NCBI GenBank assembly: GCA_020849665.1
Contig: JADLFX010000085.1
Span: 62,001-126,000, forward strand
DNA from: Planctomycetota bacterium
GTDB lineage: Bacteria > Planctomycetota > UBA1135 > UBA2386
DNA: 64,000 bases
Reading direction: 5' to 3'
Shown: in pieces, positions 1 through 14,999 of the stretch
Position numbering within the stretch: position 1 is the stretch's first letter
How the letters are laid out: each line of letters opens with the position of its first letter
Notes under the pieces: generated by a model
The model's input: only the letters and a program-made list of their open reading frames with translations
What the model was told of the DNA's origin: nothing
The model's database searches: none
Position numbers and translations under genes: made by a program

Positions 1-726
1 CTCGGGCAGCCTTGCGTCCGCCTCATCGGGGCCGGCCACGAGCACGACGGGCCAGGGCGCTCCCGGGTCCGGCAGGCCCAGCGCCGTCCGCAGGTGGGCC
101 GGCACGGTCCCGGAACGGGCGAACTCCGCGGCCCGCGCCAGGGGCCAGCTGCGCGGGTCGTCCAGCGGACCGATCACGGCGACGGCGAAGGGGCGCAGCG
201 GATCGACCCCGAGGCCGCGCAGGACCTCCGCCTCCGCCGCCTCCTCTTCGGCGCGGGCCACGAGCCGCGGCGGCCGGCTGGCGGCGCCGGGAGCCAGGAC
301 GCGCACGACCGCCAGGGCGAGGTCCGCGGGATGGCAGAGACCGGGCGCGGGCACCCGCTGGTGCAGCAGCGTCGCGCTCCAGCCCTCGCGCCGCTCGCGC
401 GCGCGGATGCCCACGGCGCGGCCCGCGCCGCTCGCGCGCGCCAGGAGCGCGCTCTTGGCGTTCCCCTGCAGGTCCAGGGCGCAGGCATAGCCCTGGCGCC
501 GCAGCTGCCGCGCCGTGCGCACGAATCCGCGCACCCCCGCGCCGCGCTCGTGCCGGATCACGGCGGCGAGCCAGGGCAGGTTCTCGAGCAGGGGCGCGAA
601 GCGCTCCTGCACCACCCAGTGCAGCTCCAGGTCCGGGCGTGCCGCCGCCAGCGCCTCGGCCGCGCCCAAGGACTGCACGACGTCGCCCATCGCCGAGAGG
701 CGGACCAGGAGCACGCGCTCCGTCAT
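1..726 (-). CDS. glycosyltransferase family 9 (heptosyltransferase-like), C-terminus cut by window edge
   Basis: The reading frame stays open from an ATG at 726 to the left edge, giving 242 residues of a protein family usually near 350. The N-terminal motif RLSAMGDVVQSL (about residues 9-20) is the nucleotide-sugar-side signature of GT9 ADP-heptose:LPS heptosyltransferases, followed by the Rossmann segments of a GT-B fold. GT9 enzymes add heptose or related sugars to the lipid A core on the cytoplasmic side of the inner membrane. The start overlaps the stop of the upstream GT39 gene (ATGA), so the two are probably translationally coupled. The acceptor and sugar cannot be read from sequence, and the C-terminal active-site half is missing from the window. 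Confidence 0.85.
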   Translation of the reverse strand, partial: MTERVLLVRLSAMGDVVQSLGAAEALAAARPDLELHWVVQERFAPLLENLPWLAAVIRHERGAGVRGFVRTARQLRRQGYACALDLQGNAKSALLARASGAGRAVGIRARERREGWSATLLHQRVPAPGLCHPADLALAVVRVLAPGAASRPPRLVARAEEEAAEAEVLRGLGVDPLRPFAVAVIGPLDDPRSWPLARAAEFARSGTVPAHLRTALGLPDPGAPWPVVLVAGPDEADARLPE

Positions 727-2240
727 CGCCGCTCCTGCAGCACGAGGGTCTTGCCGCGCACGCGCAGCCGGACGCGATCCTCGTAGCCCTCGGCGCGCGA
801 GGCGTCGACCGCGACCTGGGCGTCGGGATCCTCGACCAGGAGCCAGCGGGTGCGCGGCGCACGCGCCGCCAGTTCGTCGCCCGGCGGGAGCAGACCTGCG
901 GCGAGGAGCACCTGCGAGGGGAAGTGCCCGCGGGTGCCGAGATCCTGCGCGGCGCGCGTGCGCACCTCCTCCGCCAGGGTCGCCCCGGCGCGCGCCAACG
1001 TGCGCGGTCCGCTGCCCAGCGGATGCGCGAACACGCTCCACGCCGCGCTCGCGCACACCAGCGCCAGCGCCGCCAGCACCCCGGCGCGCGTGCGGGCCAC
1101 CAGGGGCACCGCGCCGAGGCCGAGGGCCAGGCCCGGCACGATGGCCTGGACTTGCGCCGGGAGCAGGGGCACCGCCGCGAGGAGGCCGACCCCCGCGAGC
1201 CCGAGCCCGCGCACGACGGCGGCCAGCCACCGCGGCACTCCCCCGCCCTGCAGCCACGCCAGGACCCGGGGCAGGAGCGCCACGACCAGGAGCGGGAATC
1301 CGGGCAGGAGGTAGCGCGTGGGGCGGCCGGGGAAGAGCGCCACGAGGAGGATCGCGCCGATCCCACCCCAGGCGCACAGGCGCGCGAAGCGCCGTTCCGG
1401 CGCGGTCTCCTCGGCCGCCGGGCGCGCGAACACGAAGAGCCCCAACGGCAGGGTGAGGAGCGCCATGCGCAGCAGGTAGCCCGGCGTCTCGACCACCTGC
1501 TCGCGGGTGAAGTAGAGCAGGCGGCCCACGCTCTCCTCTCCCGCCACGCGCGAGGCCTCGCCCGCGTCGACCTCCTTGCCGAGCAGCGGCACCAGCCACA
1601 CGAGGGGCAGGGCCACCAGCGGCACGAGATACGCCGCCAGCATGGCCGCGCTGCGTCCGGACTCCCGCGCACCCCGGCCGCGCAGCGCCGCCACGGCCAT
1701 GCCCGCCAGGAAGAGGAGATACGGGGGCCCCTTGGTCAGCAGCGCCAGTCCGCCGCACACGCCCGCGAGCCAGGCGGCGGAGCGCGGCCCGCCGCAGCAT
1801 GCATCGGCCAGCGCCAGCAGCGAGACCGCGGTGAACGCGGTGAAGAGCGGGTCGATCTCGGCACGCGGCATCGCCTCGAGCAGCACGGGCATCAGCAGGA
1901 TCGCGAGGGCGGCCACGAGGCCGGCGTGCGGCCCGCGCCGGCGCCGCAGCAGTGCGAAGACGTAGGCGGCCAGGAGCGCATGCGCGAGCACCGAGGGCAC
2001 CCGCGTGGCCGCGGGGCTTGGCCCGAACGCCCCCACCAGCGGCGCGAGCAGCCAGTAGTAGAGCGGTGGCTTGGCCAGCGTCGGCTCGTGTCCGAGCGTC
2101 GGCAGCAGCCACTGCCCGCTCTGCGCCATCTCCAGGGCGATCTGCACGCGGCGCGCCTCGGTGCCGGACCAGGTCTCGCCGCCGAGCTGGGGCAGGGCCA
2201 GGAGGAAGGCGAGGGCGAGGAGCGCCAGCGCGGGCCGCAT
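723..2240 (-). CDS. GT39/ArnT-like polyprenyl-phosphate-sugar glycosyltransferase
   Basis: A 505-residue polytopic membrane protein. Residues 1-20 form the first membrane helix. The first periplasmic loop has GTEARR (about 26-31), whose acidic residue matches the catalytic position of ArnT/PMT enzymes, then GHEPTLAKPPLYYW (50-63), the classic ArnT-family loop. Several further hydrophobic helices follow, and there is a soluble C-terminal tail. Family knowledge: such GT-C enzymes move a sugar from undecaprenyl-phosphate to lipid A or protein on the periplasmic face. The ATG at 2240 is chosen because TAAGGT lies 8 nt upstream and TTGCCC 17 bp further; longer frames add only Arg-rich sequence. 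It overlaps the downstream GT9 gene by 4 nt. Confidence 0.88.
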   Translation of the reverse strand: MRPALALLALAFLLALPQLGGETWSGTEARRVQIALEMAQSGQWLLPTLGHEPTLAKPPLYYWLLAPLVGAFGPSPAATRVPSVLAHALLAAYVFALLRRRRGPHAGLVAALAILLMPVLLEAMPRAEIDPLFTAFTAVSLLALADACCGGPRSAAWLAGVCGGLALLTKGPPYLLFLAGMAVAALRGRGARESGRSAAMLAAYLVPLVALPLVWLVPLLGKEVDAGEASRVAGEESVGRLLYFTREQVVETPGYLLRMALLTLPLGLFVFARPAAEETAPERRFARLCAWGGIGAILLVALFPGRPTRYLLPGFPLLVVALLPRVLAWLQGGGVPRWLAAVVRGLGLAGVGLLAAVPLLPAQVQAIVPGLALGLGAVPLVARTRAGVLAALALVCASAAWSVFAHPLGSGPRTLARAGATLAEEVRTRAAQDLGTRGHFPSQVLLAAGLLPPGDELAARAPRTRWLLVEDPDAQVAVDASRAEGYEDRVRLRVRGKTLVLQERR

Positions 2241-2248
2241 CCCGCGCG

Positions 2249-2277
2249 ACCTTAGGCGGCCCGCAGCGCCCGGGCAA
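2249..2277 (-). promoter_or_regulatory. predicted promoter of the GT39-GT9 operon
   Basis: On the minus strand TTGCCC (2277-2272), a 17-bp spacer and TAAGGT (2254-2249) lie just before the ATG at 2240. The 8-nt gap between hexamer and start codon would put the transcript start at or next to the A of ATG, giving a leaderless mRNA. Confidence 0.5.
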
Positions 2278-3777
2278 TCACCGCGGGTGGATCGGCGCGC
2301 GCCGCGCGTGCAGCTGTGCATCCAGCTCGAGCGCCCAGCGTGTGCGGTCCTGGAACTCGCGCTCGAGATGCTGGTAGGCGTCGCGGGCCCGCGCCAGCTC
2401 GCGCCGCAGGATGCGGATCTCGCGCTCGCGCTCGCGCATCTGGTTGCCGCGCAGGTCGAGGTAGAGCAGGCTCTGGTGCTCGGGGATCGGCGCGTCCGAG
2501 GCCACGCCCATCAGGTAGTGCGCGGTGGCGAGTTCGCGCCCCGTGGACGCGGCCTCCGACTCGATCCGGGCGATGTCGGCCCCCAGGTCGTCGATCAGGA
2601 TCCCGGCGACGTGGTTCTCGCCGAAGATGCGGACCTCGCGGAACCGCGCCTGCAGCGCGTCGCGCAGCTCGGGGAGGTCGAACTCGTGCACGTGGTACGG
2701 ATTCACCTCGTTCCGCTCCATGCGGTAGTACGGCCGGTTGGGCGAGGACACGATCAGGATCCCGCCCGGGGCCAGGAGCCGCCGCGCCTCGTCCAGCAGG
2801 CGGTCCGGATCGGGCACGTGCTCGATCACCTCGAAGGCCGTCACGAGGTCGTACGAGCCGCTGGCGAAGGGCAGCAGGCCGGTCGCCCCCACGTGGACGA
2901 AGCAGAGGTTGGCGTGGCGGTACGCCGCGGCCGCGCGTGCCACGGCCCCCGCGTCGATCTCGCAGCCCACCACGCTGCGCGCGCTCAAGCCCAGCAGTGC
3001 CGCGCCGTAGCCCTCGCCGCAGCCGAGGTCGAGGACCCGGCGCCCGACCGCGAATCCCAGGGCGAACCGGTAGCGGGCCAGGTGCTCCATCTCGAGGTCG
3101 GGATCGACGCCGGGCACGAAGCGCTCGCCCGTGAACACCGCGGCGCCCTGCTCCGGCGACCCCGCGGCACGCTCGGGCTCCGGCTGCCAGCCCAGGGCCC
3201 GGGGAGTGGCGATCTCGAACGCGGTGGCGGGCGCGCGGCGCCGCCGCGTCGTGGTCCAGGCGCTGAGCGCCAGCCACGCCATCCCGGTGGCCAGTTCGGC
3301 CGCGCGCAGCGGGGCGGTCCACAAGCGCCGCGGATGCCGGACACCGCTCGCCTGCAGGAGCTGGTGGCAGAGGCGCGGGATGCCCGCGCGCGCGGCGAAG
3401 TACGCGTCGCCGTGCTCGTTGCAGATCAGGTAGGACCGGGCCCCGACCATCCCGCCGACGAGCCACTGGCGCCAGTACGCCCAGTCGGAGCCGATCAGGA
3501 TCGCGCCCACGTCCGGACGCCGCGCGGCCAGCTCGGCCAGCCGCTCGCGCCGCGCGCGCGCCAGTTCCGCCAGCGTGATCCGCTCGTCCTCGCCGACGCC
3601 CCCGAGCGCCGCATCGCAGAGCAGGACGAGCCGCGCCCCGGGGAAGAGCCTGCGCACCGTGGCGAGCATCGCCGCGATCTGCGGCTCCGGGCCGGAGCCC
3701 ATGCAGACGGCGAGGCGGACCGAGGCGGACTCCGGCAGCCGGGCGCCGAGGAAGTGCAGGGGTGCAGGGACTCTCAT
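2278..3777 (-). CDS. SAM-dependent methyltransferase with unknown N-terminal domain and C-terminal coiled coil
   Basis: A protein of 499 residues. Residues 1-205 resemble no domain I can name; they contain a Rossmann-like stretch (GARLVLLCDA, about 47-56) and one possible membrane-associated helix near 162-176. Residues 215-400 are a class I methyltransferase (Methyltransf_11 type) with motif I VLDLGCGEG at 248-256 and TAFEVIEHV downstream. The last 60 residues are charged and helical (EREREIRILRREL), probably a coiled coil, as in Wzd/WbdD-type chain-length regulators. Methylation of a terminal sugar is a known stop signal for Wzt-type export. As the last gene behind wzm-wzt, joined to wzt by an ATGA overlap, it is a good candidate for such a chain-capping enzyme; that role is inference. 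Confidence 0.8.
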   Translation of the reverse strand: MRVPAPLHFLGARLPESASVRLAVCMGSGPEPQIAAMLATVRRLFPGARLVLLCDAALGGVGEDERITLAELARARRERLAELAARRPDVGAILIGSDWAYWRQWLVGGMVGARSYLICNEHGDAYFAARAGIPRLCHQLLQASGVRHPRRLWTAPLRAAELATGMAWLALSAWTTTRRRRAPATAFEIATPRALGWQPEPERAAGSPEQGAAVFTGERFVPGVDPDLEMEHLARYRFALGFAVGRRVLDLGCGEGYGAALLGLSARSVVGCEIDAGAVARAAAAYRHANLCFVHVGATGLLPFASGSYDLVTAFEVIEHVPDPDRLLDEARRLLAPGGILIVSSPNRPYYRMERNEVNPYHVHEFDLPELRDALQARFREVRIFGENHVAGILIDDLGADIARIESEAASTGRELATAHYLMGVASDAPIPEHQSLLYLDLRGNQMREREREIRILRRELARARDAYQHLEREFQDRTRWALELDAQLHARRAPIHPR

Positions 3778-5012
3778 CGCTGGATGGGCACGTGGAACGA
3801 GACCTCGACCGGCACCCGCAGGTGCCCCACCACCCGCCGGGTCGCGCGCACCTGGACCACCGCGGCATGGTCGACCCAGTCGAGCATGCGGTAGTGCACG
3901 GCGTCGCCGTCGGCCACGGCAGGGCTGAGCGAGTAGCTGCCCGACGCCAGCTCGGGGAGCCGGGCGCGGAACTCGACCACGAGCGTCTCGCCGGGCGCGA
4001 GGGGCGGCGGCGCGTGGCCCTCGAGCGCGAGGTTGGTGCCGAGCCAGTCGAGTCCCTTGCGGTCGCGGAACAGGAACCCCACGTTGCAGCGCTCCACGCG
4101 CTGCAGGGCCTCGACCACGATCCGCACGCAGAGCGCCTCGCCGCCGTCCACGTGATCCACGGGCCGCCCCGCGCCGTCGAGGACCAGGATGCCGGCCACC
4201 CGGGCCTCGCCGGAGCCGTGCCGCTCGGCGCCCTGCGGCAGGCGCGCGAGCGGCACGGTGCCCGGCAGGGCGCGCGCCGGAGCATCGCCGGCGCGCTCCT
4301 GCAGGTAGCGGGCCACGACCTCGGCGGGGGCGCCCTCGGCCACCAGCTCGCCGTTGCGCAGGTAGAGCGCGCGGTCGCAGAGGTGGCGGATCGCCTGCGG
4401 ATCGTGCGAGACCAGCACCAGGGTCCGCCCGTCGGCGCGCAGCTGCTCCAGGCGCGACGTGCACCGGTGCTGGAAGAACACGTCCCCCACCGACAGCGCC
4501 TCGTCCACGATGAGCACGTCGGGATCCCAGTGCACGGCGGCGGCGAACGCCAGCCGGACGAACATGCCGGTCGAGTACGTGCGCACCGGCTGGCCGGCGT
4601 ACGCGCCGATCTCGGCGAAGGCCAGGATCTCGGGCAGCCGCTCCTCGACCGCGCGCGCGGAGAGTCCCTGCAGGCGGCCCTGCAGGCGCACGTTGTCGAT
4701 GCCGGTGAACTCCGGATGGAAGCCGGTGCCGAGTTCGAGCAGGCTGCCCACGCGCCCTTGCACGCGGATCCTGCCGGCGCTCGGCTCGAGGACTCCGGCG
4801 AGCAGGGCCAGCAGGGTGCTCTTGCCCGCGCCGTTGGCGCCGACGATGCCGAGCGTCGTGCCCGGCGCGACGGCGAAGCTCACGTCGCGCAGCGCGCACG
4901 CCCCGGCGTCCGGCGCGCCGCCGGGCCGCAGGAGCTCGCGCAAGAGCCGCCGCGCCGGCCCGCGCCCGGAATAGCGCTTGGTCAGGTGCTCGACGTGGAT
5001 GACGGGGATCAC
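3774..5012 (-). CDS. wzt: Wzt-type ABC transporter ATP-binding protein with C-terminal glycan-binding domain
   Basis: A 412-residue protein. Residues 1-235 are an ABC ATPase: Walker A GANGAGKSTLL, signature YSTGMFVRLAFA, Walker B VLIVDEALSVGD and H-loop VSHD. Residues from about 265 form a beta-rich Wzt_C-like domain (FLFRDRKGLDWLGTNL), which in O-antigen exporters recognises the modified glycan end. The spacing and wording (LELGTGFHPEFTGIDNV) are typical of the RfbB/Wzt/TagH branch. The GTG start at 5012 overlaps the wzm stop (GTGA), and the stop overlaps the methyltransferase start. With the permease it would export a polyprenol-linked glycan across the inner membrane. Confidence 0.92.
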   Translation of the reverse strand: MIPVIHVEHLTKRYSGRGPARRLLRELLRPGGAPDAGACALRDVSFAVAPGTTLGIVGANGAGKSTLLALLAGVLEPSAGRIRVQGRVGSLLELGTGFHPEFTGIDNVRLQGRLQGLSARAVEERLPEILAFAEIGAYAGQPVRTYSTGMFVRLAFAAAVHWDPDVLIVDEALSVGDVFFQHRCTSRLEQLRADGRTLVLVSHDPQAIRHLCDRALYLRNGELVAEGAPAEVVARYLQERAGDAPARALPGTVPLARLPQGAERHGSGEARVAGILVLDGAGRPVDHVDGGEALCVRIVVEALQRVERCNVGFLFRDRKGLDWLGTNLALEGHAPPPLAPGETLVVEFRARLPELASGSYSLSPAVADGDAVHYRMLDWVDHAAVVQVRATRRVVGHLRVPVEVSFHVPIQR

Positions 5013-5803
5013 AGGAGGTCCAGGATCAGGCCGCGGCGGCGGCGCAGGAGGCCGCGGACGGCGAGGAAGAGCACGAGCGAGGCGGCCACGAGCGCGCAGA
5101 GCGCGAGGGGTGCGGGGCCAGGCCCGGCGAAGAGGCAGTCGCGGAACAGCGCGGTGAACCAGTACATGGGGTTGAGCCGCAGCAGCGCCCCGGCGGTGGT
5201 GCCCGCGCCGAGGCCGGGCCCCAGGCCGTCGAGGTCGTAGAACACCGGCGTGGCGAAGAGCCACGCGACCAGGACCAGCGCCACGACTTCGCGCGCATCG
5301 CGCAACACGAGCCCCACCAGCGCGGCGAGCATGGTCGCGGCGAGGCTGAACGCGCAGAGGCCGGCGAGCAGCAGGGGCAGCCAGAGCACGGCCGCGGACA
5401 CGCCCCGTCCGCCGGCCACGACCACCACCAGGAGCACGAGCAGGCTCGCGGCCTGGTGCGCGAGGTGGTAGAGCAGGCGCGACAGGAACACGGTCTCCAG
5501 GGGCACGCGGACGCGGGTCAGCAGCGTCCGCTGCGCGCCGAGGAGCTCGGGTCCCTCGCCCGCCAGACGCGCGAAGAGGTCCCACACCACGTAGCCGGAG
5601 AACAGGTGCAGGACGAATCCGCTGCGGATGGGTGCGGAGCGGTCGAGACCGAGGATCACGCCGAAGAAGAGCCAGTAGACGGCGAGCAGGACGAACGGCG
5701 CGACCAACGGCCAGAGCAGGCCCAGGAGCGCGCCGCGGTAGCGCGCCTCGATCTCGCGCCGCGCGAGCAGCACGGCGATCGGCATGGCGTTCACGCCGTG
5801 CAT
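5009..5803 (-). CDS. wzm: Wzm-type ABC-2 polysaccharide export permease
   Basis: A 264-residue membrane protein of the ABC2_membrane family with about six hydrophobic helices. N-terminal amphipathic RREIEARYRGALLGLLWPLVAP and the helix pair with NPMYWFTALFRDCL match O-antigen and teichoic-acid export permeases. The ATG at 5803 is preferred over the one at 5785 because GGAGGTGG lies 5-6 nt upstream of it. This start overlaps the end of the glycosyltransferase gene by 13 nt. It pairs with the Wzt ATPase directly downstream. Confidence 0.9.
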   Translation of the reverse strand: MHGVNAMPIAVLLARREIEARYRGALLGLLWPLVAPFVLLAVYWLFFGVILGLDRSAPIRSGFVLHLFSGYVVWDLFARLAGEGPELLGAQRTLLTRVRVPLETVFLSRLLYHLAHQAASLLVLLVVVVAGGRGVSAAVLWLPLLLAGLCAFSLAATMLAALVGLVLRDAREVVALVLVAWLFATPVFYDLDGLGPGLGAGTTAGALLRLNPMYWFTALFRDCLFAGPGPAPLALCALVAASLVLFLAVRGLLRRRRGLILDLL

Positions 5804-8160
5804 GCGTCCACCTCCCGGTCGCGCCGCCACGGCCAGCCGCTGTGCCGGCCGCCGGCCTCGGCGAGGACCTCGCGCCAGATGCGGTCGTGCTCCGCCGCCT
5901 TCACCTCCCAGGCGTACTCGGCCTGCACGCGGCGCAGCGCGTTGGCGACCATGCGCCGGCGCAGTTCGGGGTCGCGCAGCACCTCCACCACCGCATCGGC
6001 GAACTCGTCGTCGCGGTCGGCGATGCGCAGGTGCAGGCCGTCCCGGCAGCGCAGCCCCGCGACCGCCACGCGCGTGGCCACCACCGCCCGACCCAGCGCC
6101 CAGGCCTCCAGGATCTTGCCGCGGATCCCGGCTCCGAGCGTCAGGGGCACCACGAACACCTTCGCGGCGTGCACTTCCGGGGCGATCTCGGGCACCCGGC
6201 CGGTGATCCGCACCCCCGGCTCGCGCTCCAGCGCCAGGATCTCGGCGGGGGGCGATGAGCCCACGATCGAGAGCGTGACCCCGGGCACCCGCGCGCGGAT
6301 CCTGGGCAGGATCCGCCGCACCATCCGCACCATCGCCTCGACGTTCGGCTGGTGGCCGAAGTAGCCCACGAACACCAGTCGGTCCTCGTCGGGCTCCGGC
6401 GCGGGTCGCAGGTGGCGGACGTCGCCGCCGGTGTTGTTCACGGCCACGCGCAGGCCGCCGCGGTACTGCAGCAGGCCTGCGGCATCCGGGTCGGTGACCG
6501 TGACGACCCGCTGGAACGCGCGGCACCACCCCAGCTCGAAGCGCAGCATCCGCATCCAGGTGACCACGCGCCGCAGCCTGGCGAGGCCGCGCGCCTCCCA
6601 CACCTGGCGCGCGTACGCCACGCACTGCACCTCGTGGTCGGTGAGCAGCCTCGGCACGGTGTGGTGCTCCGGCAGCAGATGGGCCATCTGCAGGTACTCG
6701 ACGTGCACGAGGTCGTAGCGGCTGCTGGCGAGGCGCTGCCGGATCCGTTCGCGCATGCGTGGATCCGAGTACTCGCTCACCACCGCCGGCGGGGCCAGCC
6801 GGAACGGATTGGCGGCCCACGGGGTGCGCTCGCGTTGCAGCACCTCCACCTCCTCGCAGAACGTGAGCGCGGCGCCGGCGGCGGCCTCGGCCTGGCTCTC
6901 CGCGAACGCGAGGACGGTGATGTCGTGACGGCCGGCCAGCTCCTCCAGCAGGTGGTACATGCGCATCGCGCCGCCGTGCGCGCCCAGGCGGGGCACGTAC
7001 GCCGCGATCACCAGGACCCGCGGGCGGCGGGTGCGCGGCGGCGCCGGGACCACGAAGCGCGGATCCATGGCCAGGAGGGCGCGGTCCGGGATGCGGTTCC
7101 GGGCCGCGCACCAGGCGGCGCGCCGGCGGGCGATCGACGGCAGCCGGCCCAGGACGCGCAGCAGCGCCGGCAGGGCCACACCCAGCCCCTCGTGCCAGGT
7201 CGCACGCAGGAGCGCCAGCGGCCAGGCGCGGCGGTGCTCGCGCAGCAGCCCGGCGTCGGTGAGACAGGCGAGGTGGAAGGCCCAGCGGTTGGCCAGCACC
7301 AGGGCCCGCAGCCGGCGCGGCGAGAAGAGGCGCGTGCTGGTCGCACGGTGCAGGTGGAGCACGCGCGACCGCGGCGCGAGCACGCAGCGCCAGCCGCGCT
7401 TCCAGGCCCGCCACGACAGGTCGAGGTCCTCGGCGTAGGCCGGGGCGTAGATGGGGTCGAACCCGCCGAGCTGGCGCAGCTTCGCGGCATCGAATGCGCT
7501 GGCGCCGCCGCCGGCCCACAGCACCGGATGCTCCTCGCCGGGTCGGGGCGCGGGGACCGGGTCGTGGAAGAGGTGCAGCTCGCCCGCGCGCCACGTCCCG
7601 GCGGTGTTGCCGGTCTCCTCGCGGCGCACACCCTCCAGCTGCACGATCTGCGCCGAGACCGCGAACACGTCGTCGTCGCGGAACCCTGCCAGCAGCGGCG
7701 CCAGGAAGTCCTCCTCGACGATCATGTCGTCGTTGAGGAGCACCACCGTGGCGTGGCGCGCCTCCGCCAGGGCCGCGTTGTTGCCGCCGCCGAACCCCAG
7801 ATTGCCCGGCAACGCGACACAGCGCACCCAGCCGTGCTCGCGCGCGAGCCACTCCTGCGTACCGTCGCGCGAGCCGTTGGCGACGACCAGGACCTCCGCC
7901 GGCCCGCCGTGATGCTGCAGCGCGCGCCGCAGCGCGGGCAGCGAGCGCTCCAGCAGGTGGCGGCCGTCGCAGCTCACCAGGAGCACCGACACCCCCTCCG
8001 CGACGCGGCGCGGGCGCAGGCCCTGGACCGGCGGCGGATCGGCCGGGATCCGCCGCGTGCCGGCCCAGCACCACACGAGCCGCGCGACGAGCAGGTAGAG
8101 CCCCGCCAGGGGGATGCACGCGAGCGCACGGAGGAATCGGATCGGGGACGAGGAGTTCAC
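5791..8160 (-). CDS. bifunctional GT2-GT4 glycosyltransferase
   Basis: A 789-residue fusion. Residues 12-32 are one hydrophobic helix. Residues 55-285 are a GT2 (GT-A) domain of the rhamnosyltransferase type: VSVLLVSCDGR, VVANGSRDGTQ, GNLGFGGGNN and the metal-binding LLNDDM (143-145). From about 405 a GT4 (GT-B) domain follows, with RVLVIAAYVPRLGAHGGA at its N-terminus and EAWALGRAVVATRVAVAGL near the donor site. Two sugar transfers are likely, probably building repeat units exported by the adjacent Wzm/Wzt. GTG at 8160 overlaps the regulator stop codon (GTGA). The predicted FNR-controlled promoter at 8195-8236 would initiate just upstream. Confidence 0.88.
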   Translation of the reverse strand: MNSSSPIRFLRALACIPLAGLYLLVARLVWCWAGTRRIPADPPPVQGLRPRRVAEGVSVLLVSCDGRHLLERSLPALRRALQHHGGPAEVLVVANGSRDGTQEWLAREHGWVRCVALPGNLGFGGGNNAALAEARHATVVLLNDDMIVEEDFLAPLLAGFRDDDVFAVSAQIVQLEGVRREETGNTAGTWRAGELHLFHDPVPAPRPGEEHPVLWAGGGASAFDAAKLRQLGGFDPIYAPAYAEDLDLSWRAWKRGWRCVLAPRSRVLHLHRATSTRLFSPRRLRALVLANRWAFHLACLTDAGLLREHRRAWPLALLRATWHEGLGVALPALLRVLGRLPSIARRRAAWCAARNRIPDRALLAMDPRFVVPAPPRTRRPRVLVIAAYVPRLGAHGGAMRMYHLLEELAGRHDITVLAFAESQAEAAAGAALTFCEEVEVLQRERTPWAANPFRLAPPAVVSEYSDPRMRERIRQRLASSRYDLVHVEYLQMAHLLPEHHTVPRLLTDHEVQCVAYARQVWEARGLARLRRVVTWMRMLRFELGWCRAFQRVVTVTDPDAAGLLQYRGGLRVAVNNTGGDVRHLRPAPEPDEDRLVFVGYFGHQPNVEAMVRMVRRILPRIRARVPGVTLSIVGSSPPAEILALEREPGVRITGRVPEIAPEVHAAKVFVVPLTLGAGIRGKILEAWALGRAVVATRVAVAGLRCRDGLHLRIADRDDEFADAVVEVLRDPELRRRMVANALRRVQAEYAWEVKAAEHDRIWREVLAEAGGRHSGWPWRRDREVDACTA

Positions 8161-8939
8161 GGCATCTGCCGGCGCAGGCGCGTCGGTGGCGCGCTCCTTA
8201 GCCGTTGGGGGACGCGCGTTCCTTGATCTGCATCAAGGTCGGCTTCGCCCGCCTCGCCGGCGACCTCGGCGAGGCGATCTGGCCGGCGCAGGATCCAGGT
8301 CCGGCCTTCGACGGCGATCCAGCCGCGCCTGCGCAGCCACGCGAGGGCACGCGAGAGGGTCTCGGGACGCATGTCCAGCTCCGCCGCCATGTCCTTCTTC
8401 GTGCCCGCGTACGCGAAGCGCAGGCAGCCCTCGCCGGCACAGGCCGCCGGCTGGCGGAGCAGGTGGCGGGCCAGCCGCATGCGGGCGTCGCCGCCGCGCG
8501 TCGTGTCGAGGCGCTCGACCAGGGCCAGCAGCCGGCCGCAGAGCGTGCCCGTGAGCGCGGCGTGCACCTGCGGATCCGCGGCGAGCAGGGTCCGGAACGC
8601 GGCCTTGGGCACGACGACGACGCGGGTCGGCGTGACCCGGGCGCGCGCATGCACGGGGTAGCGCGCGAACGAGAACGCCGCGGCCTCGGCGAAGCTCTGC
8701 CCGGCGCGGAACGCGCGCAGCACGCGCTCGCGGCCCTCGCCGTCCCGGCGCACGACGCTGATCGCGCCCGCCTCGACCACGAAGAACGCGTCGGCCGCCG
8801 TGCCCTGCAGGAAGAGCGTTTCGCCGCGCGCGAGTTCCACGCGCCGGCAGCGTTGGGCGAGCGCGAGCAGGAGCGGGCCCGGACAGCGGCGCAGGTAGCA
8901 GAGACGGCCCAGCAGGTCGGCGAGGGGCAGTGGGTCCAC
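8157..8939 (-). CDS. Crp/Fnr-family transcriptional regulator with FNR-type ExxSR recognition helix
   Basis: A 260-residue protein. Residues 15-135 form a cyclic-nucleotide-binding-type beta-roll (ELARGETLFLQGTAADAFFVVEAGAISVV), followed by a dimerisation helix and a winged helix at about 155-215. The recognition helix RPETLSRALAWL (191-202) carries E193, S196 and R197, the ExxSR pattern with which E. coli FNR reads TTGAT. The four cysteines of FNR are not reproduced (C14, C19, C31 and C134 have other spacing), so an oxygen-labile 4Fe-4S cluster is unlikely; a DNR-like haem/NO or redox signal is possible. The GTG start at 8939 has TATCCC 6 nt upstream. An exact TTGAT-N4-ATCAA box lies in its own 3' end. 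Confidence 0.9.
   Translation of the reverse strand: MDPLPLADLLGRLCYLRRCPGPLLLALAQRCRRVELARGETLFLQGTAADAFFVVEAGAISVVRRDGEGRERVLRAFRAGQSFAEAAAFSFARYPVHARARVTPTRVVVVPKAAFRTLLAADPQVHAALTGTLCGRLLALVERLDTTRGGDARMRLARHLLRQPAACAGEGCLRFAYAGTKKDMAAELDMRPETLSRALAWLRRRGWIAVEGRTWILRRPDRLAEVAGEAGEADLDADQGTRVPQRLRSAPPTRLRRQMP
8195..8236 (-). promoter_or_regulatory. FNR-type operator plus -10 element upstream of the glycan-export operon
   Basis: Positions 8223-8236 read TTGATCTGCATCAA, a perfect match to the FNR/DNR consensus TTGAT-N4-ATCAA, inside an 18-bp palindrome (8221-8238). On the minus strand TAAGGA (8200-8195) follows. A start site 7 nt beyond it falls near 8188, which places the operator centre (8229.5) at about -41.5, the class II activation position. 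The site lies in the 3' coding end of the Crp/Fnr gene and would drive the genes from 8160 to 2278. Confidence 0.65.
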
Positions 8940-8945
8940 GCGCGC

Positions 8946-8951
8946 GGGATA
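8946..8951 (-). promoter_or_regulatory. predicted -10 hexamer of the Crp/Fnr regulator gene
   Basis: TATCCC (minus strand, 8951-8946) lies 6 nt upstream of the GTG at 8939. It supports this GTG as the start of a leaderless transcript. No clear -35 is visible. Confidence 0.4.
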
Positions 8952-9025
8952 GCACGCCGACCCCGCCCAGGAACAGCGCCTCGCCCTGACGTGAGAGGCC
9001 GGGTCCGGGCCGCCGGCGCCGCGCG

Positions 9026-9331
9026 TCAGGCCTCGCTCGGCGCGTTCTTCTCGCGGCCGCGGATCACCAGATTGCGGACGTAGACCAGGGTGCCGGTCAC
9101 CTGACCGACGATGAACACCGGGTCGCGCTGGTAGATCGCGTAGCTCAGCAGGAGCAGGCCGCCCACGATGCTCATGTGCCAGAAGAGCGCCGGCACGATC
9201 ACGCGCTTGGCGCGCTCCGTGGCGATCCACTGCACCAGGAAGCGCGTGCCGAAGATCGCCTGCCCCACGAAGCCGATCGCCAGCCAGAACCAGGGGGTCG
9301 CCGCAGCATCGGCGAGGGAGAACGCGAGCAT
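9026..9331 (-). CDS. small LAB_N (lipid-A-disaccharide synthase N-terminal-like) membrane protein
   Basis: A 101-residue protein with three hydrophobic helices. GQAIFGTRFLVQWIATERAK, ALFWHMSIVGGLLLLSYAIY and RDPVFIVGQVTG are the hallmarks of the LAB_N domain, which occurs fused to LpxB in some species and alone in others. Its function is not established; stand-alone copies commonly sit beside polyprenyl-phosphate glycosyltransferases and ArnT-like genes, suggesting a role in lipid-linked sugar handling at the inner membrane. The ATG at 9331 overlaps the upstream GT2 stop (ATGA), so the two are coupled. Confidence 0.88.
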   Translation of the reverse strand: MLAFSLADAAATPWFWLAIGFVGQAIFGTRFLVQWIATERAKRVIVPALFWHMSIVGGLLLLSYAIYQRDPVFIVGQVTGTLVYVRNLVIRGREKNAPSEA

Positions 9332-10056
9332 CACACTTCCTCCTGCACCTGATAGTCGAGCATGCGCTGGCGCAGCCAGCGCATGGCGAGACAGTCCTTG
9401 AGGCCCCGCCATGCCCGGTTGCCCACGCCGTACTTGGCCTTGCCGGCATGGCGCGGGCGGTGGTTCACGGGGATCTCCACGACGTTGGCGCCGCGGTAGC
9501 GCGCCAGCGTGGGAAGGAACCGGTGCATCCCGACGAAGCGGGGCAGTCCCGAGAGGACCTCGCGCCGGAACGCCTTGATGCCGCTCGCCGAGTCCGCGAC
9601 CCGGTCCGCGGTGATCGCGTTGCGCACCGCGTTGCCGATCCGCGACGACACGCGGCGCAGCCAGGAATCCCTGCGCCGCACGCGCACGCCGCTCACGCCG
9701 TCGGCCGCGCCGCGCTCCAGCAGCGCCAGCATCGCGGCGAAGTCGCGCGGATCGTTCTGCAGGTCGCCGTCCATCATCAGCACCAGCGGTGCGCGGCTGC
9801 GGTCCACGCCGGCCATCACCGCGGCGCTCTGGCCGCGGTTGCGCGCCAGCGAGACGATGCGGAGCCAGGGGGCGTCGTGGCGCTGCTTCCAGGCGCGCAA
9901 CCGCGCCAGGCTCTGGTCGCGCGAGCCGTCGTCCACCACCAGGCACTCGCACGGGCCCAGGGGCACGACCACGGCCGCGATCTCGTCGAGCAGCGCGTCC
10001 ACGTTGTCGGCCTCGTCGAAGACCGGCACCACCAGCGAGAACCGCAGCCCGCTCAC
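9331..10056 (-). CDS. polyprenyl-phosphate glycosyltransferase (GT2, DPM1/ArnC-like)
   Basis: A 241-residue GT2 enzyme with SLVVPVFDEADNVDALL, VVDDGSRD (metal and nucleotide site), LMMDGDLQNDP and a C-terminal HRPRHAGKAKYG motif that is typical of dolichol- and undecaprenyl-phosphate sugar synthases. It would load a sugar onto undecaprenyl-phosphate as donor for a GT-C enzyme such as the GT39 protein at 723-2240. No membrane anchor is seen. GTG at 10056 is chosen over an upstream in-frame ATG at 10125 because GGGGAGG lies 6-7 nt before it and the longer form would overlap the previous gene. Confidence 0.88.
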   Translation of the reverse strand: MSGLRFSLVVPVFDEADNVDALLDEIAAVVVPLGPCECLVVDDGSRDQSLARLRAWKQRHDAPWLRIVSLARNRGQSAAVMAGVDRSRAPLVLMMDGDLQNDPRDFAAMLALLERGAADGVSGVRVRRRDSWLRRVSSRIGNAVRNAITADRVADSASGIKAFRREVLSGLPRFVGMHRFLPTLARYRGANVVEIPVNHRPRHAGKAKYGVGNRAWRGLKDCLAMRWLRQRMLDYQVQEEV

Positions 10057-10099
10057 CGCCGTCCTCCCCGCCGCGCGGGACCGCCGCGGCCACCCCCGC

Positions 10100-12223
10100 T
10101 CACGGCGCCACCCGGATGCGGGCATCGACGGCGACCGAGGGCACGCCCTTGGCGCCGAGGATGAAGGGGTTCACCTCGACCTCCTGGATCTGCGGGAAGT
10201 CGAGCACCAGCTGGTGCAGGCGCAGCAGCGCTTCCTCGGCCACCCGCAGGTCCACGGCCGGGTCGCCGCGGAACGGCCCGAGGAGCGCGGCCCCCTTCAG
10301 GGCCGCGAACATCTCCGCAGGGTCGTGCTCGTCCAGCGGGGCGACGCGGAACGAGAGGTCGCGCAGCACCTCGACCATCGTGCCGCCCAGGCCCACCGCG
10401 AAGAGCGGGCCGTAGCGGGGATCGCGCGTCATGCCGAGCAGGATCTCGCGATGGCCGCGCGCCCGCTGCTGCACCTGGAGGCGCAGCTGCGGCAGGTGCG
10501 CGAGCCGCGCCAGCAGGTCGCGCGCCGCGGCGAACACGTCCTCGCCGCTGGTGAGGCCGGTGCGCACCGCGCGCAGCTCGCTCTTGTGCAGCAGCGCCGG
10601 CGACTCGCCCTTGAGGACCACCGGCAGGCCCAGCGCGAACGCCGCGGCCACGGCGGCCTCGGGCGTGCGCACGCGGCGGCACTCCGCGAAGCGGATCCCG
10701 TACGCGGCGAGCACCGCCTCGGCCCTCTCGCCCAGGAGCCAGGTGCCCCGCGGGTCGGAGCCGCGCGGCACCTTCAGCAGGCGCGCGGCGGCGCGCCGGT
10801 CGACGGTGAAGCGCCGCGGCCGACCGGGCCGCCGGCAGACCAGCTCGGCCCTGCGACAGAGCAGCCGCAAGGTGCGCGCCGCATCCTCGGGGAAGCGGTA
10901 CACGACGATGCCGTTGGCACGCAGCAGCTCGCTGGCCTCGTCGCCACGCTGGCGGCCCATGAGGCAGGCGAGCACCGTCTTGCCCTTGTCCTTCACCTGA
11001 CTCACGATCGCCTCCGCCACCGCGACCGCGTCGATCATGATCGGCGAGACGAAGAGCACGAGGAGCGCGTCCACCCCCGGGTCGGCCACCACCAGCCGCA
11101 GGGCGTCGCGGTAGCGCCGGGCATCGGCCGACGCGATCAGGTCCACGGGGTTCGCCACCGAGGCCTCCACCGGCAGCACCTTGCGCAGGCGCGCCTTGGT
11201 GGCCGCGGTGAACGACGCCATCTCGAGGCCGAGCGCCACCACCGCGTCGGTGGCCAGGATCCCCGGGCCGCCGGCGTTGGTGACCACCGCGACCCGCCGG
11301 CCCCGGGGCAGCGGCTGGTGCAGGAGCGCCGCCGCCAGGGAGAACATGTCGCGGAACGACTCGAGGCGCAGCACGCCGCACTGGCGCAGCAGCGTGTCGG
11401 CGGCAACGTCGGCGCCGCCGACGCTGCCGGTGTGCGAACCCGCGGCGGCGGCCCCGGCGGCGCTGCGGCCGGCCTTCACCGCCAGGATCGGCTTCTTGCG
11501 GCTGACCCGGCGCGCCACCTCGGCGAAGCGCGTCGCCTCGCCGAAGCTCTCCATGTAGAGCAGGATCACCTGCACCTGCGGGTCGTCCTCCCAGTACTCG
11601 ATCAGGTCCGCGGGCTCGACGTCCACCACGTTGCCGATCGAGGCGAACATCGCCACGCCCAGCCCCGCGCCGGCCGCGTCGGCGAGGATCGCCTCGCCCA
11701 GCGCTCCCGATTGCGACAGCATCGCGACCTGCCCGTGCCGCGGCAGCGTGGCCGAGAACGACGCGTTCATCGCGGTCTCGGGGCTGGAGTGGATCACGCC
11801 CATGCAGTTGGGGCCGATCACCCGGATGCCGTAGCGCCGCGTGATCCGCTTGAGGCGCTCCTCGCGTTCGATCCCCACCCCGCCGATCTCGCGGAACCCC
11901 GCGGTGACGACCACCATGCCCTTCACGCCCTTGCGGCCGCACTCCTCGGCCACGCGCGCGACGTCGTTGGCGGGCACCACCACGACGGCGAGATCCACCG
12001 GGCCGGGGATGGCGCCGACGGAGCGGTGGCACGGCACCGAGAGCACGGTGTCGGTGTGCGGATTGACCGGGTACACCGGCCCCGTGAAGCCGCCGGTGAC
12101 CAGGTTCGCCACCACCTGGCGGCCGATCGCGCCGGGCCGGCGGCTGGCGCCGATCACGGCGATGGAGCGCGGGCGGAACAGGCCGTCGAGAGAGGCACGG
12201 GGACGACGCGGGCGAGCGGACAC
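10100..12223 (-). CDS. NDP-forming acyl-CoA synthetase (fused alpha-beta, acetate:CoA ligase type)
   Basis: A 707-residue protein. Residues 14-115 form the CoA-binding domain (SIAVIGASRRPGAIGRQV), followed by succinyl-CoA-ligase-like domains with VIGPNCMGV and MLSQSGALGE. AAAGSHTGSVGG includes the histidine that is phosphorylated in this family. The C-terminal 230 residues form an ATP-grasp domain (ALGLPVVLKGESPALLHKSE, GLGGTMVEVLRDLSFR). It interconverts acyl-CoA with acid, CoA and ATP from ADP and phosphate in the cytoplasm; the acyl chain is unknown. The GTG start has TAGGAC 7 nt upstream and TGGACA 17 bp beyond, so it probably has its own promoter. Confidence 0.9.
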   Translation of the reverse strand: MSARPRRPRASLDGLFRPRSIAVIGASRRPGAIGRQVVANLVTGGFTGPVYPVNPHTDTVLSVPCHRSVGAIPGPVDLAVVVVPANDVARVAEECGRKGVKGMVVVTAGFREIGGVGIEREERLKRITRRYGIRVIGPNCMGVIHSSPETAMNASFSATLPRHGQVAMLSQSGALGEAILADAAGAGLGVAMFASIGNVVDVEPADLIEYWEDDPQVQVILLYMESFGEATRFAEVARRVSRKKPILAVKAGRSAAGAAAAGSHTGSVGGADVAADTLLRQCGVLRLESFRDMFSLAAALLHQPLPRGRRVAVVTNAGGPGILATDAVVALGLEMASFTAATKARLRKVLPVEASVANPVDLIASADARRYRDALRLVVADPGVDALLVLFVSPIMIDAVAVAEAIVSQVKDKGKTVLACLMGRQRGDEASELLRANGIVVYRFPEDAARTLRLLCRRAELVCRRPGRPRRFTVDRRAAARLLKVPRGSDPRGTWLLGERAEAVLAAYGIRFAECRRVRTPEAAVAAAFALGLPVVLKGESPALLHKSELRAVRTGLTSGEDVFAAARDLLARLAHLPQLRLQVQQRARGHREILLGMTRDPRYGPLFAVGLGGTMVEVLRDLSFRVAPLDEHDPAEMFAALKGAALLGPFRGDPAVDLRVAEEALLRLHQLVLDFPQIQEVEVNPFILGAKGVPSVAVDARIRVAP

Positions 12224-12230
12224 GCGCCTT

Positions 12231-12259
12231 GTCCTACGCCCGCCGCCGGGCAATGTCCA
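12231..12259 (-). promoter_or_regulatory. predicted promoter of the acyl-CoA synthetase gene
   Basis: On the minus strand TGGACA (12259-12254), a 17-bp spacer and TAGGAC (12236-12231) end 7 nt before the GTG at 12223, consistent with a leaderless transcript. The element lies in the 53-bp gap between the synthetase gene and the upstream GT22 gene. Confidence 0.45.
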
Positions 12260-12276
12260 CCACACGAGCCGGGCGC

Positions 12277-13719
12277 CTAGCGGCGCTCGGCCACGTAGAG
12301 GAAGCGCCGGTTGCGCGCCTTCCAGTCGGGCAGATCCGCGCTGCGAAACCACTCCGTGAGGCGCCATCCCTCCGGCGCCGCGCCGGCGAGCGGCACGCCC
12401 ACCACCATGAGGTGCACGCGCGCGGGCCGCGCCGGATCGGCGAGCCAGCCGGCGAGCCGCTCGCGCGCCACGCACTCGACCTGGACGTCCTGGCGCTGCA
12501 GGTAGTACCAGCCCCCCACGCTGGTCTCGGAGCCGTCGACCACGGCGAGCGCGCCGGTGAAGTCGCCGCGCGCCGCGAGCGCCTGCGCCGCCTCCACCGG
12601 ACCGCGGTGGAAGTAGGCGAACCATGCGAGCACCAGCAGGATCCCCTGCGCGCCCAGCCACACGCGCCGGTGCACCTTCGTCAGCCGGTCGTCGCGCGCG
12701 CCGGCCGCGCGCCGCGCGTACGCCTCGCCGACCATCCCGGCGGCGTGGACGATGCCGAGCAGGACCAGCGCGGGGACCACGAAGCGGAACTGCTTGCGCG
12801 CGATCAGGCTGTGGATCAGGAGGTAGGCGACGGCCACGGCGAGCGGCAGGGGCAGCGCCCGGGCTCCGCGCGCGAACCAGCGCCAGGCGGACGGGAACAC
12901 CATCAGGAAGAGCCCGGCGACGATGCCGGCGTAGGCCAGCGGCGCGGCCGCCGGCCACCGGCTCGCGGCCCCGTACACGAGGTTGAGTTCCACGTAGCGC
13001 CACGCGGTGTGCAGGAAGCGCCCGTGCACCTCGAGGTCGAGGAGCCCCTGGCCCAGCACGCCGGGCACGCAGCCCAGGACCAGGAGCGCCGACGCCGCCC
13101 AGCGCCGCTGCAGCGCGCCGGCCACGACCAGCACCGGCCCGAACACCGCGTCCTGGGCGCGCCCGCAGAACGCGAGCCCGAGACAGAGTCCGGCCACGAA
13201 GGGCCAGAGCCGGCCCGGGCCCAGGAAGAACAGCACGCTGGCCACCGAGAGGCTGGCCGCGGCGAACGGCGCGTTGGGCTGCACGGCGGCGTAGACCACC
13301 AGGAACCACGACGCCACCCACAGGAGCACCTGCCGCTGGCCGGCGACGGGTCGCCAGCGGGTCACGACCAGCCAGAGCGCCGCCATCGGCACGAGCCCGA
13401 GCAGGGCGTGGGCGAGGCGCGCGAACCCGAGCAGCGGCTCGGGCGCCGCGATGCCGAGCGAGCGGCCCAGCACGAACACGCCGGCCAGCGCGCCGGGATG
13501 CACCAGGCTGCGCACGCCGTCGATCCATTCCCACGTGCGGTGCCACGCCGCACCGGTGGCGAGGTGCCACGCCGGATCCACGTACTGGAACTGCTGGTCG
13601 AGGAACTCGTAGCCGCGCGCCCACGCCACCGCGGGCAGGCGCAGCAGCAGCGCCACGCCCAGGAACGCCGGCAGCGAGAGCGGCGTCTCGGCGCGCAGCC
13701 ACGCCCCGAGCCGCCTCAC
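12277..13719 (-). CDS. GT22 (Alg9/PIG-B-like) membrane mannosyltransferase
   Basis: A 480-residue polytopic protein. The first extracytoplasmic loop carries EFLDQQFQYVDPAWHLATG followed by WEWIDGVRSLVHPG, the arrangement (acidic pair, F-Q-Y, TWEW...R...P) that defines GT22 enzymes of eukaryotic N-glycan and GPI synthesis and their bacterial homologues. About ten helices follow, ending in a soluble segment with AERR at the terminus. It would use a polyprenyl-phosphate mannose (or similar) donor on the periplasmic side. GTG at 13719 overlaps the stop of the GT87 gene (GTGA). Confidence 0.82.
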   Translation of the reverse strand: MRRLGAWLRAETPLSLPAFLGVALLLRLPAVAWARGYEFLDQQFQYVDPAWHLATGAAWHRTWEWIDGVRSLVHPGALAGVFVLGRSLGIAAPEPLLGFARLAHALLGLVPMAALWLVVTRWRPVAGQRQVLLWVASWFLVVYAAVQPNAPFAAASLSVASVLFFLGPGRLWPFVAGLCLGLAFCGRAQDAVFGPVLVVAGALQRRWAASALLVLGCVPGVLGQGLLDLEVHGRFLHTAWRYVELNLVYGAASRWPAAAPLAYAGIVAGLFLMVFPSAWRWFARGARALPLPLAVAVAYLLIHSLIARKQFRFVVPALVLLGIVHAAGMVGEAYARRAAGARDDRLTKVHRRVWLGAQGILLVLAWFAYFHRGPVEAAQALAARGDFTGALAVVDGSETSVGGWYYLQRQDVQVECVARERLAGWLADPARPARVHLMVVGVPLAGAAPEGWRLTEWFRSADLPDWKARNRRFLYVAERR

Positions 13720-14999
13720 GCCGCGGGACCCTCCCGCGCCGCATCCCGCGCCAGCGCCAGCGCGCGCGCCACCGCCAGCAGCGCGCACACGGCCACCCAG
13801 GTCACGCTGCCGTGGGCGAGGATGGCGTTGCCGAGCTCGCGGCCGACCAGACCCTTCACCGTGAGCGAGCCGAGCGCGAACACCACGCCGAGCAGGATGC
13901 CCAGCAGCAGGTCGCGGCGTACGAAGAGCCAGGTGGCCACCGCGTGCACGACCGGCACCAGGAGCACGCAGAAGTGCGACTTGCTGCTCATCGGCGAGAG
14001 CAGCACCATCCCGCATGCCGTCGCGCCGGCGACGCCGACCAGCGCGAAGCCGTGCCGGGTCCGCCGCGCGGCGAACGCGACCCACCCGAGCAGCAGCGCC
14101 ACCAGCAGGCGCGCGGCGAGGATCACGGCGCCGCGCGTGCGCTCGTCGAGCGTCACCACGGCCACGTCCCTGGCGAAGCGTGCCGGGTCGTCCACGCCCC
14201 GGGTGGTGAGCCGGTGCAGCGTGCCGGAGAGGCTCTGGTTCAGGTAGCTGTGCGCCGACCAGGCGCCCTCGCCCTGCGCGGCCTGCCCCACGCCCTGCGA
14301 GCGCACGAAGGTCGTGTACCACGCCATGCCCCAGGAGCGGCCGTCGGCGCGGGGCAGGACCAGGTCGGGCAGGAGCGTGGCGGCGGCGAACACCGCGAGC
14401 AGCGCGAGGCCGGCGCGCCAGCGCAGCGTCGCCAGGAAGGGCAACGCGAAGAGCAGCGGCGTGGCCTTGCACGCGGCCCCCAGACCCGCCGCCGCGCCGC
14501 CGAGCGGATCCCGCCCGCGGCGCAGTGCGTCGGCCGCGGCGGTCACGCAGGCCAGGATCACGAGGTCGTGGCTCTGGTTCTCGAACACCGCGGTGATGTG
14601 GCGGAAGCTCAACGCGAGGACGAGCCCCCAGAACGGGGCCAGCGCGCGCCCGGGTGCGGCCTCGCGCACGGCGCGGTGCAGGGTGCGCAGCACGTACGCG
14701 AGGAGCAGGACGTTCAGCGCGAACCACACCCCCCGCTGGGCCGGCTCCGGCAGCCACGCCAGCGGCACGAACGGCAGCGCGAAGAACGGCGGGTAGGTGA
14801 ACGGCTTGAAGTCGTCGCGCCGGTAGATCTCCTCGCCCGCCCACATCCGCGCGGCGCCGGTCGTGTAGACCGGCAGCTCGCTCGTGTCCTTGCCCAGGAA
14901 CCCCGCGAGCCCGCCGGCCAGGAGCAGAACCAGCAGCGTGGCGAGCAGCCAGCGGCGCCGGCGATCGGCGGGCTGCGGCGGCTCCTGCGGATCGGTCAT
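13716..14999 (-). CDS. GT87-family (DUF2029) membrane glycosyltransferase
   Basis: A 427-residue protein with roughly ten hydrophobic helices. DTSELPVYTTGAARMWAGEEIY and FKPFTYPPFFAL are the first-loop signature of GT87 enzymes such as actinobacterial PimE, and GLGAACKATPLLFALPF is the usual later motif. GT87 members add mannose or other sugars from polyprenyl-phosphate donors. The gene starts the minus-strand unit GT87-GT22. TACAAC (15016-15011) lies 11 nt upstream of the ATG. The two enzymes next to each other suggest successive periplasmic sugar additions to a lipid or glycoprotein. Confidence 0.82.
   Translation of the reverse strand: MTDPQEPPQPADRRRRWLLATLLVLLLAGGLAGFLGKDTSELPVYTTGAARMWAGEEIYRRDDFKPFTYPPFFALPFVPLAWLPEPAQRGVWFALNVLLLAYVLRTLHRAVREAAPGRALAPFWGLVLALSFRHITAVFENQSHDLVILACVTAAADALRRGRDPLGGAAAGLGAACKATPLLFALPFLATLRWRAGLALLAVFAAATLLPDLVLPRADGRSWGMAWYTTFVRSQGVGQAAQGEGAWSAHSYLNQSLSGTLHRLTTRGVDDPARFARDVAVVTLDERTRGAVILAARLLVALLLGWVAFAARRTRHGFALVGVAGATACGMVLLSPMSSKSHFCVLLVPVVHAVATWLFVRRDLLLGILLGVVFALGSLTVKGLVGRELGNAILAHGSVTWVAVCALLAVARALALARDAAREGPAA

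Follow-up and report, generated by a model that had tools for sequence, protein, structure and literature searches.

The 64,000-nt window analysed here (the whole stretch from position 62,001 to 126,000 of contig JADLFX010000085.1, assembly GCA_020849665.1 of a Planctomycetota bacterium) carries a Crp/Fnr-family regulator gene, a perfect palindromic operator at the 3' end of that gene, and behind it an operon for the synthesis and export of a surface glycan. We consider it probable that these elements form a local switch with one target, in which a DNR/HcpR-like activator drives the glycan operon through this operator and a class II promoter, both at the end of its own gene. An initial annotation made from the sequence alone had described an FNR-like regulator with an FNR box in its own 3' end, controlling a glycan-export operon; the observation is confirmed, and the interpretation is in part supported.

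The operator and the regulator gene

The exact TTGAT-N4-ATCAA sequence claimed at 8223-8236 (TTGATCTGCATCAA) is present, and the arms of the palindrome reach 7 bp (8221-8238). It is the sole match to this pattern at one mismatch or less in the window, where shuffles predict 0.08. Pattern searches for boxes across the 5.24 Mb genome returned no perfect match but this one (control pattern, 0). Because 29 one-mismatch matches, mostly in coding DNA, exist in the same genome, a single perfect box is unremarkable by itself; the surprising part is its location, within the final ~100 nt of the single Crp/Fnr gene that scores over the Pfam HTH_Crp_2 cut-off in this genome. Positions 8222-8237 agree at all 12 fixed bases with CTTGATnnnnATCAAG, the published operator consensus of DNR (PMC1274295). 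Four further TTGAYN4RTCAA sites in the genome are located in strongly periodic coding DNA and have no paired C/G flanks. A wider regulon is not claimed, given a single perfect box and the near-complete confinement of one-mismatch and Y/R variants to periodic coding DNA. One of the one-mismatch boxes (CCTTGATGATGATCAGC, G000:C4:42034, L071:1501) is found in DNA of weak codon periodicity, with no A2+T6 hexamer 22 nt away on either side. A hairpin or terminator function of the palindrome was considered and dropped, as a T-run is absent and no terminator was called there.

The placement of the box within the regulator frame stands as annotated, but the description of it as part of the gene's own 3' end does not: it belongs to a conserved module that a run-on reading frame has overrun. 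The alignable part of the protein stops near residue 229, although the frame stays open to 8157, and the last ~30 residues are missing from every aligned homologue. In the AlphaFold model of the regulator (pLDDT 85) residues 231-260 score below 50 and are disordered. The G+C content at third codon positions (GC3) is 0.94 in the body of the gene versus 0.67 in the tail, and the three-base codon periodicity, strong in the body, collapses across the operator region and the tail. Taken together, these properties indicate that the DNA of the box behaves as intergenic and just happens to be read through. The TGA stop of the regulator overlaps the GTG start of the glycosyltransferase gene (GTGA).

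Both PF00027 and PF13545 score over cut-off in the regulator, which provides the sole PF13545 match over cut-off in the genome, and a Foldseek comparison of the AlphaFold model matches its fold to structures of CRP, DNR and FNR. The recognition-helix residues E193, S196 and R197 were assigned correctly and are invariant across 26 sequences. The label FNR-like had to be given up in favour of DNR/HcpR-like, given a score of 24 bits against a cut-off of 228 for the NCBIfam Fnr model and relatives that adjoin hcp, nor, nnrS and hemerythrin genes. FNR proper was rejected on the same score and for want of the four-cysteine spacing of the [4Fe-4S] cluster; that this spacing is missing had been recognised from the outset, and the cysteines which the window protein does have are not conserved in its homologues. 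CRP was rejected as well, the equivalog model scoring 43 bits against a cut-off of 266 and the loop ARYPVHA replacing the Arg-Ser pair that in CRP contacts the phosphate of cAMP.

In a set of homologues from Verrucomicrobia and Proteobacteria, the regulator gene adjoins hcp (L033, L036, L037, L039, L040 and L041) or norCB (L035, L038, L046, L054, L056, L065 and L069), and nnrS adjoins one homologue from the window's own order (L111). Many intergenic regions beside the hcp, norC, nnrS and hemerythrin homologues carry TTGAYN4RTCAA; TTGATN4ATCAA occurs at one mismatch or less in 7 of the 25 intergenic regions examined, where single-base shuffles predict 0.06. The best Protein Data Bank match of a Pseudomonas homologue (L047) is P. 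aeruginosa DNR, and the window regulator itself scores 65.8 bits against the sequence of the DNR crystal structure. The name DNR/HcpR-like follows from these neighbours, the operators beside them and the match to the DNR consensus. To judge from the co-occurrence of protein and site in relatives, the regulator is a DNR/HcpR-like protein predicted to read TTGAYN4RTCAA, and nitric oxide (NO) is its likely, predicted signal. It is called DNR-like and not a DNR because neither denitrification or NO genes under its control nor a second box were seen in the genome.

The module and its promoter in related genomes

Among 154 genomes searched in the window's order, 21 besides the window's own had the regulator. 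Immediately past the regulator gene, TTGAYN4RTCAA follows as operator in 13 newly fetched loci, on the strand of the gene, and also in L110 and L032; its distance from the stop codon is -4 to 49 nt (15 loci measured). The TTGA of the operator includes the TGA stop, so that coding end and operator are fused, at L143:995, L147:1464, L153:1404, L154:1762 and L155:1413. Ten Pfam-checked loci (L135, L136, L138, L141, L143, L147, L153, L155, L110 and L032) continue on this strand with a gene for a hemerythrin (PF01814), an oxygen/NO-binding protein, and L150 continues with one for a cytochrome c; L139, L142 and L154 are closely related to tested loci, with a next gene outside the Pfam scan. The Planctomycetota locus L032 and L137 of the window's order agree in gene lengths and in their mirrored boxes, and the order is accordingly very probably Planctomycetota. 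Phylogenetically, the window protein falls within a supported clade (99/99) with these relatives, on a long branch. This comparison indicates that the box is the operator of the regulator family, and that the regulator-operator-promoter layout of the window is inherited from a module usually ending in a hemerythrin gene. Five hemerythrin genes are encoded elsewhere in the window genome, all on contigs that lack a TTGAYN4RTCAA site.

Two other arrangements were seen around the homologues. At L032:2785 and L137:2205 a second operator is located between the regulator and a divergent gene for an alginate_exp-like outer-membrane protein, which hints at autoregulation or a second target. A conserved radical SAM gene of ~420 codons adjoins some homologues in place of hcp, nor or hemerythrin (L111:9309-10562, L112:8876-10135 and L034:3792-5057).

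An activator centred at -41.5 needs a gap of 22 nt to the -10 element, and this class II geometry is known for FNR. The hexamer TAAGGA, proposed as the -10 element at 8200-8195, is present exactly 22 nt past the box. Since it had been picked for its spacing, the spacing in relatives serves as an independent test. Twenty-one target promoters (hemerythrin, cytochrome, hcp and nor; near-duplicates included) were aligned on the operator. The hexamer 22 nt past it has A2 in all 21, compared with 0-9 at other offsets, and A2 together with T6 in 15 (0-3 at other offsets); the 15 group representatives in the weight matrix, a subset of the 21, all retain A2. The proposed class II spacing is thus conserved among these promoters. 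This set excludes six norC, nnrS and other sites that have no hexamer at the 22-nt spacing, so the wider family does not follow the rule throughout.

In the window, TAAGGA scores best of 45 offsets on its strand and contains the only TA within 60 nt, although 2.4% of the window's hexamers score equally well. The opposite strand offers nothing comparable at the 22-nt spacing, so that a good hexamer faces the glycan genes only. A sigma-70 promoter scan of 8050-9150 found nothing, such a scan being uninformative in DNA of 74% GC. The AAGGAG within TAAGGAG (8199-8194) was also considered as the ribosome-binding site of the glycosyltransferase gene and rejected, since it lies more than 30 nt from the GTG.

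The glycan operon and the proposed switch

The order of genes given for the operon, GT2/GT4 followed by Wzm, Wzt and a methyltransferase, is correct according to Pfam (Table 1). The set for glycan export dependent on an ATP-binding cassette (ABC) transporter is complete, comprising the Wzm permease, a Wzt protein with the Wzt_C domain and GT2/GT4 glycosyltransferases.

Table 1. Position of the regulator, its operator and predicted promoter, and the surrounding genes in the window
Feature	Position	Strand	Basis
Crp/Fnr-family regulator, DNR/HcpR-like	8157..8939	-	PF00027 + PF13545, AlphaFold, alignment
Regulator, sensor fold	~8939-8480		
Regulator, helix-turn-helix with PETLSR recognition helix	~8475-8265		
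Regulator, disordered run-on tail	8157-8249		
Operator, perfect palindrome CCTTGAT-CTGC-ATCAAGG	8221..8238	.	Genome pattern search, DNR consensus, relatives' operators
Predicted -10 element TAAGGA	8195..8200	-	Exactly 22 nt from operator; spacing kept in 21 relatives' promoters
Predicted transcription start	8188	-	Inferred from class II geometry, operator centre -41.5
Fused GT2-GT4 glycosyltransferase (789 aa), first gene of glycan unit	5791..8160	-	Pfam; orthologues 54%/53% in G038/G058
Wzm-like ABC-2 permease	5009..5803	-	PF01061; syntenic in G038/G058
Wzt, ABC ATPase with C-terminal Wzt_C glycan-binding domain	3774..5012	-	PF00005 + PF14524; syntenic in G038/G058
Methyltransferase-domain protein, possible chain-terminating/modifying enzyme	2278..3777	-	PF08241/PF13489; syntenic in G038/G058
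PMT-like GT-C glycosyltransferase, overlaps methyltransferase gene, possible last unit gene	723..2321	-	PF13231; membership inferred from overlap only
LAB_N membrane protein, upstream of regulator	9026..9334	-	PF07578
GT2 glycosyltransferase, paired with LAB_N protein	9331..10125	-	PF00535

In the proposed switch, the ligand, which the neighbours of the relatives suggest to be NO bound via heme or else a change in oxygen or redox state, would activate the regulator. The activated protein would bind 8221-8238 and touch RNA polymerase at -41.5, and transcription would start near 8188. The expected outcome is increased synthesis of the surface glycan and its export by the ABC transporter, under putative redox or NO control. 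Additional expression of the glycan genes may come by read-through and by GTGA translational coupling from the regulator gene. The gene order is compatible with a history in which the glycan-export unit took the place of hemerythrin behind the regulator; such a replacement would be the simplest history, and it suggests an old switch wired to a new output. Also in favour of the model, the orthologous glycan units of G038 and G058, the former of which begins with the GT gene, have neither regulator nor operator, and no regulator homologue or operator was present within the fetched flanks of 19 other loci of the GT2/GT4 glycosyltransferase in the order. The broader proposition, that a module kept in one bacterial order before hemerythrin genes has been cut loose from nitrosative and oxygen defence and now governs an O-antigen-like glycan operon, gas or redox sensing directly remodelling the cell surface via a single-target switch with its operator in its own gene, has in our estimate an even chance of being right.

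Several observations weigh against the activator switch. The -10 hexamer of the window has no T6, unlike most of the relatives (L135 and L136 also lack it, with GATAAG), and this makes the promoter weak; activator-dependent promoters are often weak. No relative was found with the same order of regulator and glycan genes, which leaves a single genome in which regulator and box are known to accompany this operon. The GTGA overlap is also compatible with plain co-transcription of the glycan genes with the regulator. Both hcp and norB, considered as hidden targets, are absent from the window genome, where the COX1 matches represent an aa3-type and a CcoNO-type oxidase, and no other pointer to NO physiology was seen. 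Finally, the regulator is divergent (end branch 1.64, identity at most 42%), and its signal may differ from that of the relatives.

With the pairing known in a single genome, the main rival is that operator and promoter are a relic of the regulator-hemerythrin module. The glycan operon would have landed behind them and would be transcribed from elsewhere, by read-through from the GT2, LAB_N and regulator genes, without meaningful control by the regulator. Hemerythrin as the usual target among relatives, the overlap of the glycan operon with the regulator stop codon, the weakness of the -10 element without T6 and the run of the regulator frame through the operator all fit this history. However, an unused AT-rich site would be expected to decay in a genome of 74% GC, and the palindrome is perfect; the regulator retains all its invariant residues and a strong codon periodicity, and there is no other box for it to serve. 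We regard a relic as unlikely. Repression, in which the regulator, once bound to the box, would keep read-through from reaching the glycan genes or hold down its own level by a roadblock in the 3' end of its gene, could be accommodated by an operator within the regulator's reading frame and by the ability of Crp/Fnr proteins to repress, as FNR does at the Klebsiella capsule genes (PMC6828653), but it is improbable in view of the class II spacing to a -10-like hexamer, which in the 21 promoters of relatives and in the window points to activation. That the palindrome is a codon accident unrelated to the regulator is barely credible, for while the 29 one-mismatch matches make roughly one perfect match by chance conceivable, the box is located at the end of the sole Crp/Fnr gene over cut-off, where the operators of relatives lie, and has matching flanks and the 22-nt spacing.

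Transcription from the side of the LAB_N gene may feed into the regulator. The gap separating the LAB_N stop codon from the start of the regulator gene (8985-9030) holds an imperfect 18-nt inverted repeat (78%), which includes CCTGACG/CGTCAGG and has no T-run. Further upstream, among glycosyltransferase genes, a frame of 1214 aa (10100-13744) contains the domains of an ADP-forming acyl-CoA ligase (CoA_binding_2, Succ_CoA_lig and ATP-grasp_5); no Pfam family is matched by the ~520 N-terminal residues, which may reflect an over-extended start. At L114:1303-3753 (G000:C19) subunit I of a cbb3-type oxidase is fused in one frame with a FixO/CcoO cytochrome c subunit (816 aa).

Comparison with known systems

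The activator switch proposed here would be a clear example of a regulatory circuit rewired through exchange of its target, in which regulator, operator and promoter spacing stay and the gene behind them changes. The comparison also provides a footprint, consisting of the operator, 22 nt and an A2 hexamer, for a putative NO/O2 regulator family, apparently of Planctomycetota, on which no paper was found in the literature searched. If the signal is NO or oxygen, uncultured bacteria would have a direct tie between gas sensing and the export of a surface glycan.

The closest known counterpart is DNR, the NO-responsive Crp/Fnr activator of nir, nor and nos in Pseudomonas, with which the window regulator shares the CTTGATnnnnATCAAG operator, the E-T-x-S-R helix, the FAEA sensor motif and homologues adjoining norCB. 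It differs in an identity of ~30%, a local single-site regulon, a glycan target and the lack of denitrification genes seen in the genome, and heme and NO binding are predicted. HcpR is similar in its TTGAC/TTGAT-N4 operators, which occur beside hcp in the Verrucomicrobia homologues of the window regulator, whereas the window genome has no hcp. Local regulators of the HcpR type have very few sites per genome (PMC1274295).

The FNR systems, including capsule control in Klebsiella, resemble the window in the TTGAT-N4-ATCAA box, the class II geometry at -41.5 and a link from oxygen to surface polysaccharide, but the window regulator has no N-terminal cysteine set, scores far below the Fnr cut-off and would act as a local switch. 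In Klebsiella, FNR represses cps, in part via RmpA and RmpA2 (PMC6828653). Bcam1349 of Burkholderia cenocepacia, likewise a Crp/Fnr-family protein governing a surface polysaccharide cluster, responds to c-di-GMP and regulates an exopolysaccharide cluster (PMC3584217). Both the signal and the kind of polysaccharide cluster are different, and the likeness drawn here is one of family and target.

The initial annotation held a glycan exporter under this type of control to be unusual. This is accurate for a DNR-type local switch with a replaced target, but not for the control of polysaccharide by FNR or other Crp/Fnr proteins, for which there is precedent (PMC6828653, PMC3584217). The literature searched yielded no DNR-type module whose target has been exchanged for an ABC-transporter glycan operon, which is no proof of absence. 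The O-antigen systems dependent on a Wzm/Wzt ABC transporter have a permease, a Wzt_C ATPase, a methyltransferase and fused glycosyltransferases in one run, as does the window, while the window unit differs in having its own Crp/Fnr regulator and operator in front. The new element is the output, with a GT2/GT4-Wzm-Wzt-methyltransferase operon standing where relatives usually have hemerythrin.

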